DNA of 7,388 nt from the NCBI GenBank assembly GCA_024278555.1, contig JAJRSX010000070.1, positions 1 through 7,388 of the forward strand, given 5' to 3'. The notes below the pieces were generated by a model. That model saw only the letters and a program-made list of their open reading frames with translations, was not told the origin of the DNA and ran no database searches. Both the position numbers and the translations under genes were made by a program. Every line of letters begins with the position of its first letter. Position 1 is the stretch's first letter. Origin of the DNA: a bacterium (GTDB lineage: Bacteria; CG2-30-53-67; CG2-30-70-394). Positions 1 to 7,388 of this stretch are shown in pieces.

Positions 1-501
1 CAGGAGGTTGGTCTGGAAGGCGATCTCGTCGATCAGTTTGATCACCCCGGCGATCTTCTGCGACGCCTCGGTGATCTCTCCCATCGCCGCCACCATCTCC
101 TGCATGGAGTGCTCGGATTGCTCGGTGATCTTCCGGGTCTCGGCCGCCATGGCGTTCGCCTGGCCGGCGTTGTCGGCGTTCTGGGCGGTCATCGCCGACA
201 TCTCCTCCAGGCTCGCGGAGGTCTCCTCCACCGACGCCGCCTGGGTGGCCGCGCCCTCGGCGAGCTGGCGGGAGTCGTCGTTTGCCCGGGCGAGGTTGGC
301 CTCCACGCCGGTCACGACGGTGGCGATCTCCCCCACTTTTTCTTCCACCGGCCGCCAGGCGGCGTGGCCCCAGAGGGCGAGGAGGAGGGCGAGGGGGAGT
401 GCCCCGGCGAGCCCCCACGGGCCGGTAAAGGCGACCACCACCGAGACGGTGGTCATGATGGCGAAGGCGATCCAGGTCTTCTGCTTGAAGGTCAACTCCA
501 T
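1..501 (-). CDS. Methyl-accepting chemotaxis protein without a periplasmic sensor domain (N-terminal 167 residues, runs off window)
   Basis: Chemoreceptor that should control CheA kinase activity through CheW. The reading frame is open from the ATG at 501 to the window edge, giving 167 residues without a stop. Residues 9-25 and 28-46 are two hydrophobic helices separated by only a couple of residues, so almost nothing is exposed to the periplasm. No HAMP or PAS domain is recognisable after them: the chain passes through a short helix into the signalling domain. A methylation site of the A-A-x-x-E-E-x-x-A-S type lies at about 88-97, and the fragment ends in the start of the hairpin tip (DEIAFQTNLL, 158-167). 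Start choice: a GGAG at 508-511 sits six bases before the ATG, and the gene follows cheW by 38 bp, so it is probably the third gene of the cheA-cheW operon. What it senses is not visible; input may come through the membrane, a partner protein, or a C-terminal domain beyond the edge. Confidence 0.93.
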   Translation of the reverse strand, partial: MELTFKQKTWIAFAIMTTVSVVVAFTGPWGLAGALPLALLLALWGHAAWRPVEEKVGEIATVVTGVEANLARANDDSRQLAEGAATQAASVEETSASLEEMSAMTAQNADNAGQANAMAAETRKITEQSEHSMQEMVAAMGEITEASQKIAGVIKLIDEIAFQTNLL

Positions 502-539: not shown

Positions 540-1031
540 TCAGAGGGGAAAGTCGCCGGCGGCGAGGGTCGCCATCTCTGTCGCCGGGAAGATCTTGTCC
601 ATGTCGATGAGGACCAGCGCGCTCTCTCCGGCCCGGGTCATTCCGAGGAGGTAGTCGGCGGCGCCGCCGGTCCAGTTTGGCGGGGGCGGTTCGATCTCCT
701 CCGCGACCACGTCGGCGACATCCTCCACCGCGTCGACCACCACCCCGAGTTGGGTGTCGTGGACGCGCAGGACGATGATGCAGGTCGCCTCGCTCTCCTC
801 GCCGGCCATCAGACCGAGGCGCTCCCGCAGGTCGACCACCGGGACGAAGCGGCCGCGCAGGTCGATCACCCCGCGGACGTAGTGGGGGGTGTTGGGCAGG
901 GCGGTCATCGGCTGCATGGAGACGATCTCCCGCACCCCGATGATGGTGATCCCGAAGAGCTCGTCGCCGAGGTGGAAGGTGAGGACCTTGCCGGAGAGGG
1001 TGGGGGACGAGGGCGAGGTGGGGGTGGTCAT
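540..1031 (-). CDS. cheW: Chemotaxis coupling protein CheW
   Basis: Cytoplasmic adaptor that links receptor signalling domains to CheA in the chemoreceptor array. The 163-residue protein is one CheW-like double beta-barrel domain, the usual length for the family. It shows the typical opening strands (VLTFHLGDELFGI, about 16-28), the RGVIDLRG loop at 53-60 followed by PVVDLRERLGL at 64-74, and a late LLGM-x(9)-LIDMDKI stretch near 128-147. Start: an in-frame upstream start at 1073 would add 14 residues, but the ATG at 1031 has GGAG at 1037-1040 five bases ahead and overlaps the cheA stop as ATGA, typical of translational coupling. The 540-stop is followed after 38 bp by a receptor gene. Nothing looks degenerate. 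The alternative, a CheV or a second CheW-domain protein, is unlikely because there is no receiver domain. Confidence 0.96.
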   Translation of the reverse strand: MTTPTSPSSPTLSGKVLTFHLGDELFGITIIGVREIVSMQPMTALPNTPHYVRGVIDLRGRFVPVVDLRERLGLMAGEESEATCIIVLRVHDTQLGVVVDAVEDVADVVAEEIEPPPPNWTGGAADYLLGMTRAGESALVLIDMDKIFPATEMATLAAGDFPL

Positions 1032-3385
1032 GGGAGCTCCGTCTTGTGTGCTGCGCTGTCGACAGCCTGCCAACTGCCGCCGACGATCGTCGCCACGTCG
1101 AGGATGAGGCCGACGCGGCCGTCGCCGAGGATGGCGCAGCCGGCGAGTCCGTCGATGCCGTCGAGCCGCGGTCCGAGGCTCTTGATCACCACCTGGTGCT
1201 GGCCCAGGAGGTCGTCGACCAGCAGCGCCCGTACGCGGTCGTCGTTCTCGACGATGACCACCAGACCGTCGGCCGGGTCGGTGGTGGCGGCGTGCTGGCC
1301 GAGCCGCTGGTCGAGGCGGATCAGGGGGACGAGGGTGCCCCGCACGTCGATCACCTCACCGTGCCCCTCGACGAGGTGGATGTCGCCCGGCTTCGGACGC
1401 ACCGACTCGCGGATCGCCAGGGTGGGGATGATGTACCGCTCGTCACCGAGGCTGACGATCATGCCGTCGACGATGGCGGTGGTCAGGGGCATCTTCAGAA
1501 TGAAGGTGCACCCCGCGCCGAGGGTCGAGTGGATCTCCACCCGCCCGCCCAGCCGTTCGAGCTGCCGCTTGACCACGTCCATGCCGACCCCTCGGCCGGA
1601 GATCTCCGTGGGATGGTCCACGGTGGAGAAGCCGGGGAGGAAGATGAAGCCGTAGATCTCCGAGTCGCTGTACTCGCGGTGCGGATCGATCAGCCCCTTC
1701 TCCAGGGCCTTGTGCATCAGGATGTCGCGGTTCAGCCCGTGGCCGTCGTCGCGGATCTCGATGACCACGTTGCCGCCCGCGTGGTAGGCGGCGAGGGTCA
1801 CCCTCCCGACCTCCGGCTTGCCCGCGGCGCGCCGCTCCTCCGGGGTGCCGATCCCGTGGTCGCAGGCGTTGCGCAAGAGATGGACGAGGGGGTCGCCGAG
1901 CTCCTCCACCAGGGTCTTGTCGATCTCCGTCTCTTCGCCCACGAGCTCCAGGTGAATCTGCTTCTCCGTCTTCCGCGCCACGTCGCGCACCAGACGGGTC
2001 ATCTTCTGGAAGGTGGCGCGCAGGGGGACCATCCGCACCGCCATCACCTGGTCCTGGATCTGGTTGGTGATCTTTCCCAGCTCGGTGATGTTGCGGACCA
2101 GGCTGCTCGCCCGCTCGTGATCCAGCAGCGCCGGGTCCTGGGCGACCAGGGTATGGGCGATGGAGAGCTCGCCGATCGACTCCATGAGGGCGTCGAGCTT
2201 GCCTGCCTCCACCTTGATGTACTGGTTCTCCACCCGCGCCGGCGTCTTGGCGGGCGCCTTGGCGGCGGTTCCCTGGGGGGGGGCCGGCGGCGCCGCCGCG
2301 GGTGGGGCGGCGGCGGACCGGGTGGGAGGTGCGGGGGTCGCGGACGGGGCGGGGGGGGCGACCGGGGGGGGCGGCGCCGCCGGCGCGCTCTTCGCCTCGG
2401 CGCCGCCCTCTCCGGCGGGGGGGAGCTTCGGCGGTGTCGTCCCGGCGAGGTGGGCGTGGACCTCCGCGAGGACCGGGCCGATCTCCACCGGCACCGGCGC
2501 CGGCGGCGCCTCGCCGTGGGCCAGGGCCTCCACGTGGGCGGCGAGGTTGGCGACCAGTTGGCGGGTGAGGTCGACGCTCTTGAGCAGGGTGTCGACGATC
2601 CCCGCGTGGATGGTGAGCTTCTCCTTGCGTGCGTGGTCCAGCAGGGTCTCATTCTCGTGGGCGAAGTGGCCGAGGGCCTCCAGGCCGAGAAAGCCCGCCG
2701 CCCCCTTCATGCTGTGGAAGGGGCGGAAGACGGCGTTGATCGCCTCCAGATCCTCGGGGGTCTCCTCCAGGGCGAGGATCTTCTCCTCGATGGTCGCCAG
2801 GTGGTCCTGGGTCTCGCTGAGAAACTCGGTGAACAGCCCGGCGTCCTCGTCGTCGTTGATGGCCACCTGCTCGACGCCGGTGACCGGCGGGTGGAGCTCG
2901 CCGTCGGCGGAGGGCGTGTCCGACTCCGTATCGGAGGGGGAGGAATCCGGGGCGGTGACCGGTTCGGGAGCGGCCACCGCCGCTCCCTCCTCCCGAGGCC
3001 CGGTCGCCGGGGCCCGGTCGGCGAGCCAGCCGGTGAGCGCCTCGCTGGCAGCGGTGATCCGTGCGGCGAGGTCGTCGAATGGCTCCATGAGCCCCACCGC
3101 GGCGCGTGCCGTCTCCACCGCCCGGGAGAGGGGCTCGGCCACCGCCTCATCCCATTGATCCGGCTGGCTGGCCAGGTGGCTGGAGATAGATACCAGGGCG
3201 TTGAGGAGCGCTCGGGTCTCCTCCTCACCCTCGGCGAGGGAGACGCGCACGGCGGTGAGGGCGGCGAGCACCCGCTGCCACACCCCGGCGTCGGGCTCCC
3301 CCATCTGGACCATGAGGAGCTCCGCCGCCAGGTGGTCGAAGGCGGTGGTGAGGGCCTCGTTCGGGGTGGGTTGCTCTGCTGCCAT
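1028..3385 (-). CDS. cheA: Chemotaxis sensor histidine kinase CheA, with N-terminal extension and no evident P2 domain
   Basis: Central kinase of chemotaxis: autophosphorylates on a histidine and passes phosphate to CheY/CheB-type regulators. The protein is 785 residues. Residues 1-125 are a helix-rich stretch I cannot assign. After an acidic linker, the HPt (P1) domain spans about 180-290, with the phospho-accepting His224 in FHSMKGAAGFLGL. A Pro/Ala-rich linker runs from about 292 to 384, where a P2 domain is often found. The P3 dimerisation helices follow at about 386-450. The ATPase (P4) spans about 450-635, with the N box DPLVHLLRNACDHG (Asn506), the G1 motif RDDGHG (545-550) and the G2 motif GRGVGMDVV (597-605). 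The CheW-like P5 spans about 636-770. Start: GTG at 3388 is possible, but the ATG at 3385 has GGAG at 3392-3395 with a six-base spacer. The stop overlaps the cheW start by four bases. No receiver domain is fused. All kinase motifs look intact. Confidence 0.96.
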   Translation of the reverse strand: MAAEQPTPNEALTTAFDHLAAELLMVQMGEPDAGVWQRVLAALTAVRVSLAEGEEETRALLNALVSISSHLASQPDQWDEAVAEPLSRAVETARAAVGLMEPFDDLAARITAASEALTGWLADRAPATGPREEGAAVAAPEPVTAPDSSPSDTESDTPSADGELHPPVTGVEQVAINDDEDAGLFTEFLSETQDHLATIEEKILALEETPEDLEAINAVFRPFHSMKGAAGFLGLEALGHFAHENETLLDHARKEKLTIHAGIVDTLLKSVDLTRQLVANLAAHVEALAHGEAPPAPVPVEIGPVLAEVHAHLAGTTPPKLPPAGEGGAEAKSAPAAPPPPVAPPAPSATPAPPTRSAAAPPAAAPPAPPQGTAAKAPAKTPARVENQYIKVEAGKLDALMESIGELSIAHTLVAQDPALLDHERASSLVRNITELGKITNQIQDQVMAVRMVPLRATFQKMTRLVRDVARKTEKQIHLELVGEETEIDKTLVEELGDPLVHLLRNACDHGIGTPEERRAAGKPEVGRVTLAAYHAGGNVVIEIRDDGHGLNRDILMHKALEKGLIDPHREYSDSEIYGFIFLPGFSTVDHPTEISGRGVGMDVVKRQLERLGGRVEIHSTLGAGCTFILKMPLTTAIVDGMIVSLGDERYIIPTLAIRESVRPKPGDIHLVEGHGEVIDVRGTLVPLIRLDQRLGQHAATTDPADGLVVIVENDDRVRALLVDDLLGQHQVVIKSLGPRLDGIDGLAGCAILGDGRVGLILDVATIVGGSWQAVDSAAHKTELP
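1037..1040 (-). promoter_or_regulatory. Ribosome binding site deciding the cheW start
   Basis: On the minus strand GGAG lies five bases before the ATG at 1031, inside the last codons of cheA. It favours this start over the upstream in-frame start at 1073 and fits coupled translation with cheA (ATGA overlap). Confidence 0.7.
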
Positions 3386-3474
3386 CACGCTCTCCCGCAG
3401 GGGTGGCCGGCCCGCGCGAGCGGACTCGATGGCCCCTCCTTTCGGCCTCTCGGAGCGACGGCTTGAACGTGATG

Positions 3475-3500
3475 GGTATGGGTCTCATGGAAGCCATACC
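3475..3500. repeat. Inverted repeat GGTATGG-N12-CCATACC, possible operator
   Basis: A perfect 7-bp inverted repeat with a 12-base spacer lies near the middle of the divergent cheA/receptor region. Its geometry (two half-sites about 19 bp apart, centre to centre) would suit a dimeric regulator bound on one face of the helix, and its position would allow control of both genes. That role is inferred; the arms are short enough to arise by chance. Confidence 0.4.
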
Positions 3501-3508
3501 GAACGACG

Positions 3509-3536
3509 AATAGGGGCCTCATTGGCAGAGCCTATT
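3509..3536 (+). repeat. Imperfect hairpin in the leader of the haem-c receptor gene
   Basis: AATAGG at 3509-3514 pairs with CCTATT at 3531-3536. The stem can be extended inwards by CTC/GAG if a GGC bulge is allowed, leaving a 7-base loop. TTCTT follows directly, so on the plus strand it resembles a weak terminator or attenuator ending 28 bp before the receptor ATG. It could equally be a protein-binding palindrome or chance. Confidence 0.35.
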
Positions 3537-3564
3537 TCTTCCCACGCCGACCTCAGGATCTCCT

Positions 3565-5100
3565 ATGCGCCTCTCACTCCAGACCAAGATCACCCTCGCC
3601 GGCATCGCCATCCTTGCAGCGCTCCTCGCCTCCCTCGCCTATCCCTACGCACGACAGATTCGGAAGGTGGCGGTGGACGAGTACGTGGAGAAGGCGCGCG
3701 CCATCGACCTTCAGGCGGAGGCGGTGCGCGAGGAGATGGAGAAGAAGTGGGCCGACGGTCTGTTCACGGCGGCGCAGCTCCGGGCGTGGACGGAGGCGGG
3801 TGAGCGGGAGAAGGTCGTCTCCGCGGTCCCGGTGGTGACTGCCTGGCGGACCGCCCAGATCCACGCCGAGGAGGGCGGATACACCTTCCGCACCCCGAAG
3901 TTCCAGCCCCGCCGCCCGAGCAATACGCCCGACGCGCTGGAGGCGCGGGCGCTGATGAAGATGAAGGCGGAGGGGCTGGACGAGTACTGGGAGATTGATC
4001 CGCAGCGAAACGCGGTGCGCTACTTCCGTCCCATCCACCTCTCCGAGACGTGCATGAACTGTCACGGCGACCCGGCCACCTCCACCGCATTGTGGGGTAA
4101 CGCCGAGGGGGTCGACCCCACCGGCGGCCCCATGGAGGGGTGGAAGGTGGGGGAGGTCCACGGCGCCTTCGAGGTCATCCAGTCCCTCGCACCGCTCGAC
4201 GCGCGCCTGGCGGCGAACCTGCGCAAGGCGGCGATCGCCGTGGGTGCGGTGCTCCTCCTGATCACCGGCGGCTACTTCCTGCTGGTGCGTTGGTTGATTG
4301 ACCATGATCTCAAACGGCCGGTGTCGCGGATGGTGGAGCGCCTCTCCGCGGGGGCGGCGCAGACCGCCCACGCCTCCACCGAGATCTCCCAGGCGAGTCA
4401 GGAGCTCGCCAACGGCGCCTCCAGCCAGGCGGCCTCTCTGGAGGAGACCGCCGCCTCGGTGGAGGAGCTCACCGCGATGACCCAGAACAACGCCGCCAAC
4501 GCCCGCCAGGCGAACGAGCGCGCCACCCAGATGCGCATCGCCGCCGGTGAGAGCCGCAAGGCGGCGGCGGCGATGGCCGCGGCGGTCGACCGGGTCGAGG
4601 GGTCGGTGAAGGAGACCGCGCAGATCATCCAGGCGATCGACGAGATCGCCTTCCAGACCAACCTGTTGGCCCTCAACGCCGCGGTGGAGGCGGCGCGCGC
4701 CGGTGATGCGGGCAAGGGGTTCGCGGTGGTCGCCGAGGAGGTGCGGGCCCTGGCCCAGCGCTCCGCCGAGGCGGCCCGGCGCACCGCCGACCTAATCAAC
4801 ATCACCCAGGACGCCACCGACGAGGGGGCGTCCTGCTCCGCCAAGGTCGGCGGCGCCCTCAGCGAGATGGTCGACGAGATCCAGGCGATCAGCCAGATCT
4901 TCGACGAGGTGAGCCAGGCGACCAACGAGCAGGCCCAGGGGATCGCGCAGATCAACCACGCGGTGACCCAGCTCGACCAGGTGACCCAGGCCAACGCCGC
5001 CCACTCGGAAGAGACCGCCGCCACCTCCAAGGAGCTCTCCAGCCAGGTAGGCCACGTCCAGACGGTGATCAGCGAGCTGAAGACGCTGATCGGCGATTGA
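3565..5100 (+). CDS. Methyl-accepting chemotaxis protein with DUF3365/Tll0287-like periplasmic c-type haem domain
   Basis: A 511-residue inner-membrane chemoreceptor. Residues 9-26 form an N-terminal membrane helix and 222-244 a second one, enclosing about 195 periplasmic residues. That part resembles the DUF3365 (Tll0287-like) family: a GYTF segment at 105-108, a P-N-x-PDALEARAL region at 119-130, YFRP at 153-156, then CMNCH at 163-167, a CXXCH covalent haem c motif, and a GWKVGEVHGAF closing strand at 192-202. After helix 2 there is no recognisable HAMP domain. The signalling domain follows, with methylation sites of the A-A-x-x-E-E type near 289-298 and 478-487 and the conserved tip at 360-405. 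No CheR-tethering pentapeptide is seen at the C terminus. AGGA at 3555-3558 supports the start. The gene diverges from cheA, suggesting it signals to that kinase. Redox, oxygen or NO/CO sensing is inferred from the haem; DcrA of Desulfovibrio is a known haem c receptor precedent. Confidence 0.93.
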   Translation: MRLSLQTKITLAGIAILAALLASLAYPYARQIRKVAVDEYVEKARAIDLQAEAVREEMEKKWADGLFTAAQLRAWTEAGEREKVVSAVPVVTAWRTAQIHAEEGGYTFRTPKFQPRRPSNTPDALEARALMKMKAEGLDEYWEIDPQRNAVRYFRPIHLSETCMNCHGDPATSTALWGNAEGVDPTGGPMEGWKVGEVHGAFEVIQSLAPLDARLAANLRKAAIAVGAVLLLITGGYFLLVRWLIDHDLKRPVSRMVERLSAGAAQTAHASTEISQASQELANGASSQAASLEETAASVEELTAMTQNNAANARQANERATQMRIAAGESRKAAAAMAAAVDRVEGSVKETAQIIQAIDEIAFQTNLLALNAAVEAARAGDAGKGFAVVAEEVRALAQRSAEAARRTADLINITQDATDEGASCSAKVGGALSEMVDEIQAISQIFDEVSQATNEQAQGIAQINHAVTQLDQVTQANAAHSEETAATSKELSSQVGHVQTVISELKTLIGD

Positions 5101-5278: not shown

Positions 5279-6019
5279 TCACGCCAGGGATCCCTCGCGG
5301 TGGTCGGCGAAGCTGTAGAAGCCGGACTCGCCGACCACCAGGTGGTCCAGCAGCCGCACGTCGATGGCGCGCAGGGCGGCGCCGATCCGGCGGGTGAGGT
5401 GGCGGTCGGCCTCGGACGGATGGGTCCGGCCGGAGGGATGGTTGTGGGCGAGGATGACCCCCGTGGCGTCGTGCTCGACCACCAGCCGGACCACCTCGCG
5501 CGGGTAGACCGCCGAGCCGTCCACGGTCCCCTCGGCCACGTCGATCAGCGCCTGCAGGGCGTTGCCGGAATCGAGCAGCAGGAGGGTGACCGCCTCGGTG
5601 CGGCGGCCCGCGTAGTGGGGGGCGAGGAGGCGGTACGCCGCCTGCGCGTCGGCGACGGTGGGGCGCTGGTCGTGGAGCTCCGCCTGGTAGCGGCGGCCGA
5701 GCTCCAGGACCGCGGCGAGCTGCGCCGCCTTCGCCGGCCCGAGGCCGCGCATCGCGAGGAGCTTGGTGAACGGCGCCCGGTAGAGGCCGTGGAGGCCGCC
5801 GAAGCTCTCCAGCAGATTACGCGCCAGGTCGACCGCGGTGAGCCCGCGGACGCCGACGCGCAGGAAGATGGCCAGGAGCTCGGCGTCGGTGAGCGACGCG
5901 GCGCCGCGGGCGATGAGTCGCTCGCGCGGCCGCAGCTCCTCGGGCCAGGCGGAGATCGGTTGGGCCACGCACGCCATCGTATCGGACGCGGTGCGGTCAT
6001 CGGGTTGGGGATCGCCCAT
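5279..6019 (-). CDS. radC: RadC family JAB/MPN domain protein
   Basis: Member of the RadC (YicR, formerly DUF2466) family, whose true cellular role is unsettled; the old link to recombinational repair is doubtful. The protein is 246 residues, close to the family's usual size. The N-terminal part (about 20-100) carries a helix-hairpin-helix DNA-binding-like stretch (MRGLGPAKAAQL, about 90-101). The C-terminal part is a JAB1/MPN metal-binding domain with HNHPSG at about 192-197 and an Asp eight residues after the Gly (D205), the expected zinc-binding pattern. Start: the frame stays open far upstream, and an ATG at 5977 is possible, but the ATG at 6019 has a near-perfect AGGAGGG at 6025-6031 with a five-base spacer, so it was chosen. 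The gene diverges from the mqnD-like gene and appears monocistronic. Confidence 0.92.
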   Translation of the reverse strand: MGDPQPDDRTASDTMACVAQPISAWPEELRPRERLIARGAASLTDAELLAIFLRVGVRGLTAVDLARNLLESFGGLHGLYRAPFTKLLAMRGLGPAKAAQLAAVLELGRRYQAELHDQRPTVADAQAAYRLLAPHYAGRRTEAVTLLLLDSGNALQALIDVAEGTVDGSAVYPREVVRLVVEHDATGVILAHNHPSGRTHPSEADRHLTRRIGAALRAIDVRLLDHLVVGESGFYSFADHREGSLA

Positions 6020-6128
6020 GGTTGCCCTCCTGGCGGTTGCGGTGTCAGCCTTCGCGGCCCGCGTCGCGCGGGCGGCCGCGGCCCTCCTGGGCCGGGCGCG
6101 ATTCTCCTCCAACCCCGCAGGTTTCTCC
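6020..6128. promoter_or_regulatory. Divergent promoter region between radC and the mqnD-like gene
   Basis: These 109 bp should hold the start signals of two divergent genes. The radC Shine-Dalgarno AGGAGGG is at 6025-6031 on the minus strand. The mqnD-like gene has only a weak AGG at 6119-6121. Two small GC hairpins are present: 6057-6073 (7-bp stem, 3-base loop) and 6079-6094 (6-bp stem, 4-base loop). They may be chance products of the base composition. No promoter hexamers stand out. Confidence 0.4.
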
Positions 6129-6965
6129 ATGCCCCAGACCCTCCGCCTCGGCCACTCACCTGACCCCGACGACGCCTTCATGTGGTTCTCCCTCCTCGGC
6201 GACGGGCTGATCGACACCGACGGATACCGTTTTGAGCACGTGATCGAGGAGATCGAGTCCCTCAATACGCGGGCGCTGGCCGGCGAGCTGGAGATCACCG
6301 CCCTCTCGATCCACGGCTTCGCCCACGTGGCGGACCAGTACGCCCTCTTGAACGCCGGCTCCAGCATGGGCGAGGGGTACGGGCCGGTGGTCGTCTCGCG
6401 CGCGCCGATGGAGGCGGGGCGGCTCTCCGAGGTGACCGTGGCGATCCCCGGCGAGCTCACCTCCGCGGCCCTGGCGCTTGCCCTCCACACCCCGGGGGTC
6501 ACCACCGAGGTGGCCGCCTTCGACGCCATCCCGGGGTTGGTGGCCGAGGGCAGGTACGAGGCGGGGGTCCTGATCCACGAGGGGCAGCTCACCTACGCCC
6601 AGTCGGGCCTGCACAAGGTGGTCGACCTCGGCGCGTGGTGGGCCACCGAGACCGACGGCCTGCCCCTGCCCCTGGGCGGCAACGCGATCCGCCGCGACCT
6701 CGGCGAGCAGGCGTGTGAGCGGGTCGCGCGGATCCTGGAGTCCTCCATCCGTTACTCCCTCGCCCACCGCGACGAGGCCCTGGCCCACGCCATGAAGTAC
6801 GGCCGCGGCCTCGACACCGAGCTTGCCGATCGCTTCGTCCAGATGTACGTCAACGACCGCACCCTCGATTACGGCGACGACGGTCGCCGCGCCGTACAAC
6901 TCTTCCTCGACCGTGCCGCCGACGCCGGCCTCATCCCGAAGCGGGTGGTGGTCGAGTTTCTCTGA
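6129..6965 (+). CDS. mqnD: MqnD-like menaquinone biosynthesis family protein (putative 1,4-dihydroxy-6-naphthoate synthase)
   Basis: A 278-residue protein of the MqnA/MqnD family, which has a periplasmic-binding-protein-like fold but works in the cytoplasm. MqnD converts cyclic de-hypoxanthine futalosine to 1,4-dihydroxy-6-naphthoate in the futalosine route to menaquinone. The family signature LGHSPDPDDAFM lies at 6-17. Other conserved stretches follow: ALSIHGFAH near 58-66, a small-residue GSSMGEGYGPVVV near 77-89, LIHEGQLTYA near 154-163, LPLPLGGNAI near 184-193, and a GRGLDTELADRFVQMYVN block near 225-242. Start: the ATG at 6129 places the signature six residues in, as in relatives; the frame is open further upstream, but that stretch does not look like family sequence. 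No other mqn gene is in the window, so MqnD activity rather than a related role is inferred. A hairpin follows the stop. Confidence 0.85.
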   Translation: MPQTLRLGHSPDPDDAFMWFSLLGDGLIDTDGYRFEHVIEEIESLNTRALAGELEITALSIHGFAHVADQYALLNAGSSMGEGYGPVVVSRAPMEAGRLSEVTVAIPGELTSAALALALHTPGVTTEVAAFDAIPGLVAEGRYEAGVLIHEGQLTYAQSGLHKVVDLGAWWATETDGLPLPLGGNAIRRDLGEQACERVARILESSIRYSLAHRDEALAHAMKYGRGLDTELADRFVQMYVNDRTLDYGDDGRRAVQLFLDRAADAGLIPKRVVVEFL

Positions 6966-6997: not shown

Positions 6998-7388
6998 ATT
7001 TCACTAGTATCCGGTTAAAGATCGAATAGATTCAATTGGTTAGAATGCCGCGGGGGTGACTCTTGCAGTATGGCATCGCTCAGTATTTGAAATAATGGCG
7101 TTTGCTCGAAGAGATTGACCTCCACAATGTGCAGGATCGTGTGGAGGCTGACGGGTAAATGAAGGCGTTTCTTGGCGAGGACCACGAGCAGGTAGGCGCT
7201 GATAGCGATCCGGATCTGCGTCTTCACGGCGTTGGCCGAAGTTCCCTGGAAGGTCTTGATCCGCACCACTTGAAGAACAGCTCGACTTGCCAGCGCTGCT
7301 TGTAGAGATCGGCCACCGTCTTGGCTGGGATCTCGAAGGCATTGGTGAGGAAAACCAAGCGCTTGCGGCGTTCGAGGTCGATATAGGA
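6998..7388. mobile_element. One end of a decayed IS4-type insertion sequence
   Basis: The transposase fragment and the lower GC content starting near 7000 mark one end of an insertion sequence that continues past the right edge. The boundary probably lies in 6998-7014, between the hairpin after the mqnD-like gene and the transposase stop. The other terminal repeat is outside the window, so neither the inverted repeat nor a target-site duplication can be confirmed. Confidence 0.6.
7015..7388 (-). pseudogene. IS4-type DDE transposase, C-terminal fragment with frameshift (runs off window)
   Basis: Remnant of an insertion-sequence transposase. From 7388 to 7266 one frame reads YIDLERRKRLVFLTNAFEIP and onward to YKQRWQVELFFKW. 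This is the C-terminal part of an IS4-type catalytic domain, with Tyr, Arg and the catalytic Glu of the YREK motif (Y-x2-R-x3-E-x6-K). The expected continuation then appears in another frame from 7266: VRIKTFQGTSANAVKTQI, a hydrophobic helix, and the typical NQLNLF ending, with a TAA at 7015-7017. Relative to family members as I remember them, about four codons plus one base (13 bp) are missing between the two parts, including the motif's final Lys. The protein is thus broken in two ways. The N-terminal part is outside the window. The DNA here is less GC-rich than its neighbours, which fits acquisition. Confidence 0.85.

Follow-up and report, generated by a model that had tools for sequence, protein, structure and literature searches.

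What does a chemoreceptor with a haem c motif in its periplasmic domain sense, and is its signal passed to the CheA kinase encoded head to head with it? This question is raised by the window analysed here, a stretch of 7388 bp that corresponds to an entire contig, G000:C39, in the draft genome (3.06 Mb) of a flagellated, uncultured bacterium. An open reading frame on the + strand (3565..5100) encodes a 511-residue sCache_heme (PF11845) methyl-accepting chemotaxis protein (MCP), as assigned from the ORF, Pfam and structure models. Domain identity, haem motif, fold model, operon and the presence of maturation and flagellin genes were computed here, and we infer the haem loading, the ligand, the CheA partner and the behaviour of the receptor.

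From N to C terminus, the receptor consists of a first transmembrane helix (TM1), a periplasmic PF11845 domain, a second transmembrane helix (TM2) and an MCP signalling domain, all encoded on the + strand. TM1 (about residues 7-29, 3583..3651) was located by hydropathy within a hydrophobic stretch at about 3-29 and belongs to a continuous helix 5-63 in the model. The periplasmic Tll0287-like/sCache_heme domain (residues 36-206, 3670..4182) was delimited with Pfam, an AlphaFold model and the match to 5b82. TM2 (about residues 221-246, 4225..4302) lies in a hydrophobic stretch around residues 215-246 and is followed by a signalling hairpin (4321..5091; Pfam and whole-receptor model) with its tip near residue 379. 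The original prediction had described this reading frame as a chemoreceptor with a DUF3365/Tll0287-like periplasmic part and had proposed a search against PF11845. Both assignments are confirmed, with a PF11845 match at residues 36-206 (E 1.4e-30, 107.1 bits, cut-off 24.1) and an MCPsignal match at residues 318-474 (E 1.9e-39). In addition to the tip, the signalling part shows a methylation-site-like stretch in its sequence, AASLEETAAS (residues 289-298, 4429..4458), as expected for an MCP. Among the matches listed, PF11845 and MCPsignal were both detected by Pfam in 41/41 of the longer relative products scanned. Overall, the receptor is a member of an already known, recently described sensor family and not a new kind of system. 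The same domain family is also found in a histidine kinase apparently split over two contigs of the genome (end of L008 and start of L007, on G000:C105 and C15) and in a second kinase on C170.

No HAMP domain was matched by Pfam in the window receptor, and no HAMP break is visible in the whole-receptor model, where one helix runs from 209 to 378 and the next from 380 to 509; the overall arrangement in this model is unreliable, because its pTM is 0.49. HAMP was detected by Pfam in 20 of 41 receptor relatives among the matches listed. The length of the signalling part equals that in E. coli Tsr and Tar models, which we take to be class 36H.

The haem c attachment motif CMNCH occupies residues 163-167 (4051..4065, + strand; sequence and homologue alignment), exactly where a CXXCH had been predicted inside the DUF3365 domain. 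Such a motif arises in 0.02% of shuffles of the receptor protein. It is kept in 44/44 aligned homologues among the matches listed, a count biased by the search pattern, which itself contained CxxCH. The AlphaFold model built on 44 homologues (pLDDT 95.6, pTM 0.86) has a Cache fold with the CXXCH insertion as in Tll0287 (5b82), its best match among solved folds (Z 14.7, rmsd 3.0, 149 residues aligned, 25% identity). Other Cache and PAS-like crystal structures score well below 5b82 (Z no higher than about 7.6), and GSU0935 of Geobacter sulfurreducens (3b42) ranks third in a Foldseek search with the receptor model. The proposed identity as a haem c domain is upheld; the PAS-like fold proposed with it is not, PF11845 (DUF3365/Tll0287-like) having been reclassified as a Cache domain, sCache_heme, in a 2026 preprint (PMC12889525). 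Since the maturation factors CcmF, CcmC and CcsB are encoded in the genome, covalent haem c attachment is plausible, and the outer domain of the receptor would plausibly hold a covalently bound haem.

Besides Cys163 and Cys166, the whole protein has a single cysteine, at position 424. An axial cysteine as in Tll0287 is excluded, the receptor domain having none outside CXXCH. The candidate distal ligand is Met58 (codon 3736..3738, + strand), proposed from its position in helix 1 of the homologue alignment and because GSU0935 uses Met60 as distal ligand. Position 58 is a methionine in 29 of 44 aligned homologues among the matches listed. The 5b82 profile alignment stops short of helix 1, giving no residue-by-residue match of Met58 to GSU0935 Met60 or to the axial Cys of Tll0287, so that the ligand role of Met58 is putative. 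Position 48, an aspartate in the window receptor, is a cysteine in 10/44 homologues among the matches listed; these Cys48 receptors come mostly from Desulfobulbaceae and similar groups, carry the cysteine in helix 1 ahead of Met58 and may differ in distal ligation.

Several characterized proteins offer points of comparison. The sCache_heme-MCP proteins (PMC12889525) share with the window receptor the Pfam family, the strict CXXCH and a single periplasmic domain between two TM helices; moreover, the receptor lacks an axial Cys, like the tested signalling-type protein. However, that protein, from P. azotoformans, has a HAMP domain, which is not needed in all members and which the window receptor does not have. 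GSU0582 and GSU0935 (3b47, 3b42) are likewise periplasmic haem c chemoreceptors with a methionine near residue 60 in helix 1, but they possess HAMP, crystallized in a swapped-dimer form and are 16-17% identical in the Foldseek alignment. Tll0287 (5b82) gives the best fold and sequence match to the receptor domain, although it is a stand-alone protein with Cys/His ligation and no signalling domain. Finally, DcrA of Desulfovibrio vulgaris, compared by description, resembles the receptor in its working, being described as a redox- and O2-sensing receptor with periplasmic haem c, but has an extra cytoplasmic PAS domain.

The predicted head-to-head placement of the receptor with a cheA-cheW-mcp operon is borne out. 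The starts of cheA and of the receptor gene are separated by 176 bp (3389..3564), a region in which no sigma-70-like promoter was found. On the - strand, cheA (1028..3388; Pfam and motifs) encodes an Hpt domain with H-box His225, dimerisation, ATPase and CheW-like domains, and carries ATP-binding motifs besides the H-box. The ATG of cheW (540..1031, - strand; Pfam and ORF positions) overlaps the cheA stop codon, and the window begins within an MCP gene, the 5' part of which (1..501, - strand) encodes no sensor domain. Over 137 bp, the start of the window and the end of contig C7 overlap without a mismatch, and joining C7 and C39 restores a single open frame through the cut MCP, 374 aa in total. 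On C7, cheR, cheD, HDOD, cheY, cheX, cheB and CheW-CZB genes follow closely spaced on the same strand, which gives the order cheA-cheW-mcp-cheR-cheD-HDOD-cheY-cheX-cheB-cheW(CZB). The overlap therefore places the receptor, encoded on a short contig of a draft genome, divergent to a complete chemotaxis operon. No description of the che operon of the host lineage was found in the literature. The genome carries two flagellin genes, and additional genes for CheA lie on C184, C86 and C25.

The joined MCP (window 1-501 plus L130 18651-19409) has two hydrophobic stretches or TM helices with almost no loop between them and no sensor domain; its C-terminus consists of a proline-rich linker and the tail EEEEEYVEGF, which may serve to tether CheR or CheB. 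The last gene of the operon (L130 13474-14310) encodes a CheW-CZB protein, in which a zinc-binding CZB domain interrupts the CheW domain; this architecture is rare but already known (PMC8262984). At the other side of the receptor, a mqnD-like menaquinone gene of the futalosine pathway (PF02621) lies beside radC at 5838-6965. The window end (7015-7388) has a low GC content, 0.54 versus about 0.70, and its frames resemble the end of an IS4-like transposase, although Pfam gave no match for them; this low-GC end may explain the contig break.

With regard to the signal, our leading reading, held with middling confidence, is that of an NO-sensing haem c receptor, with redox as a modifier, feeding the neighbouring che operon. 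A signalling-type sCache_heme member without axial Cys binds NO tightly and releases it slowly, but does not give a stable complex with O2 (PMC12889525), evidence that comes from one Pseudomonas protein (P. azotoformans) in a preprint. The window receptor has both features of this signalling type (Cluster 2), namely TM helices with a signalling output and no axial Cys. In addition, NO binding with loss of Met60 has been described for the sensors of GSU0582 and GSU0935 (PMC8396549). One locus of the genome encodes NorC, NorB, a truncated globin and a GAF-sigma54 regulator of NorR-like type; exposure of the cell to NO is therefore probable, and the adjacency of norCB and the NorR-like gene makes NO plausible as a signal. 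NorB matches the cytochrome c NO reductase 3o0r with an E value of 1e-97. Within this locus (L128 939-5541, on G000:C173), the regulator gene is divergent from norC, norB and the globin gene. With the two families tried, neither NirK nor any clear NO-forming nitrite reductase was found in the genome. A cytochrome d1-type match in C31 was not accepted as NirS, being a weak beta-propeller match only.

The strongest rival is a redox receptor in which the oxidation state of the haem iron is itself the signal, Met58 being bound when reduced and leaving on oxidation, in the manner suggested for GSU0582 and GSU0935; such a protein would guide the cell towards a redox zone or an electron acceptor that it prefers. 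We regard this as tentative but quite possible. The Met58 conservation described above would fit it, as would the mqnD-like gene nearby and the origin of many listed homologues in Desulfobulbaceae, Desulfuromonadaceae and other anaerobe-rich groups. Moreover, a redox-sensing role has been ascribed to GSU0582 and GSU0935, which undergo a redox-linked switch of spin and ligand with midpoints of -156 and -251 mV, and in GSU0935 the distal Met60 is released on oxidation as well as on NO or CO binding (PMC8396549). On the other hand, the preprint found a stand-alone sCache_heme member to be redox-like and the tested signalling-type protein to be a tight NO binder (PMC12889525), and the ligand role of Met58 is deduced from its place in helix 1.

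As for the kinase, the original prediction had seen in the divergent arrangement a dedicated pairing, that is, a receptor and a CheA forming an exclusive pair held together by selection. The short distance between these divergent neighbours speaks for it, as do two layouts elsewhere. In a clade of five members (L079, L085, L089, L092, L093), the receptor is the third gene of a cheA-cheW-mcp arrangement, and L081 (2369-9764) shows a second, comparable case of an sCache_heme receptor divergent to a che operon, with a HEAT-like response-regulator gene (repeat type judged by eye) before cheA. However, the cheA genes of the five-member clade are of a different, hybrid type. A scan of named genomes retrieved at least 47 related loci from many phyla, and cheA lies inside the fetched flanks of 9/47 of them among the matches listed, versus 36/149 listed MCP domains within 8 kb of cheA in 37 related genomes, which is not a significant difference (Fisher p 0.55). 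In the subset with 5 kb on both sides, cheA is present at 5 of 18 loci among the matches listed (p 0.77), and four of these are from one clade; the survey may overlook divergent CheA, and its contigs are short. At least five changes in cheA linkage are needed on the sensor-domain tree, and a same-genus genome (G001, 94% complete) gave no receptor match and only a distant CheA. The proposed neighbourhood survey thus shows no receptor-cheA link above the MCP background. Because linkage is at this background rate, scattered on the tree, and the receptor is absent from G001, a dedicated conserved module is not supported; as a general rule the pairing is rejected, and for this locus it seems quite improbable. 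Furthermore, the operon has its own MCP. Several other receptors encoded in the genome match the window receptor in signalling-domain length, so that the window CheA probably serves several receptors. What is supported is a local recruitment of the receptor into the che locus.

Direct sensing of O2 (aerotaxis) would accord with the CcoN oxidase encoded in the genome and with DcrA, a receptor with periplasmic haem c for which oxygen and redox sensing has been reported (PMC8396549), but is very improbable indeed, since the sCache_heme proteins tested, the signalling-type one included, autoxidise and yielded no stable oxy complex (PMC12889525). Hence, of the electron-acceptor or NO/O2 signals initially suggested, NO is favoured, redox is a strong rival, both in line with earlier work (PMC8396549, PMC12889525), and O2 is unlikely.

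On the favoured NO reading, the periplasmic sCache_heme domain would carry one covalent haem c bound through C163 and C166. His167 would be its proximal ligand, and the cysteine-free distal site would be held weakly, probably by Met58 or water. Binding of NO, modified by the redox state, would alter the distal ligation and shift helix 1 and TM2. As HAMP is absent, TM2 would continue straight into the signalling hairpin and change CheA activity via CheW. The kinase would most likely be the neighbouring CheA of the complete che operon, also used by the receptors of the same length in the genome. Adaptation of the receptor would rely on CheR, CheB and CheD, and CheY-P would bias the flagellar motor. 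A broader proposal, that distal ligand changes in this HAMP-less receptor pass via TM2 into the hairpin, so that the che operon would serve NO-taxis coupled to norCB-dependent respiration or detoxification of NO in an uncultured phylum, appears somewhat unlikely as a whole.

The initial explanation of the locus needs to be changed in three respects: the sensor fold is Cache and not PAS, the signal is more likely NO or redox than O2, and the use of CheA is probably shared rather than dedicated. The neighbourhood survey is also a warning against inferring a dedicated pathway from one divergent gene pair. Very few proteins have been studied in which an extracytoplasmic haem c drives behaviour, and it was only in 2026 that the PF11845/sCache_heme family was proposed to sense NO. 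With a complete che operon next to it, an NO reductase encoded in the same genome and no HAMP, the receptor would be a simple test case for how an exchange of ligands at a periplasmic haem is relayed to CheA.
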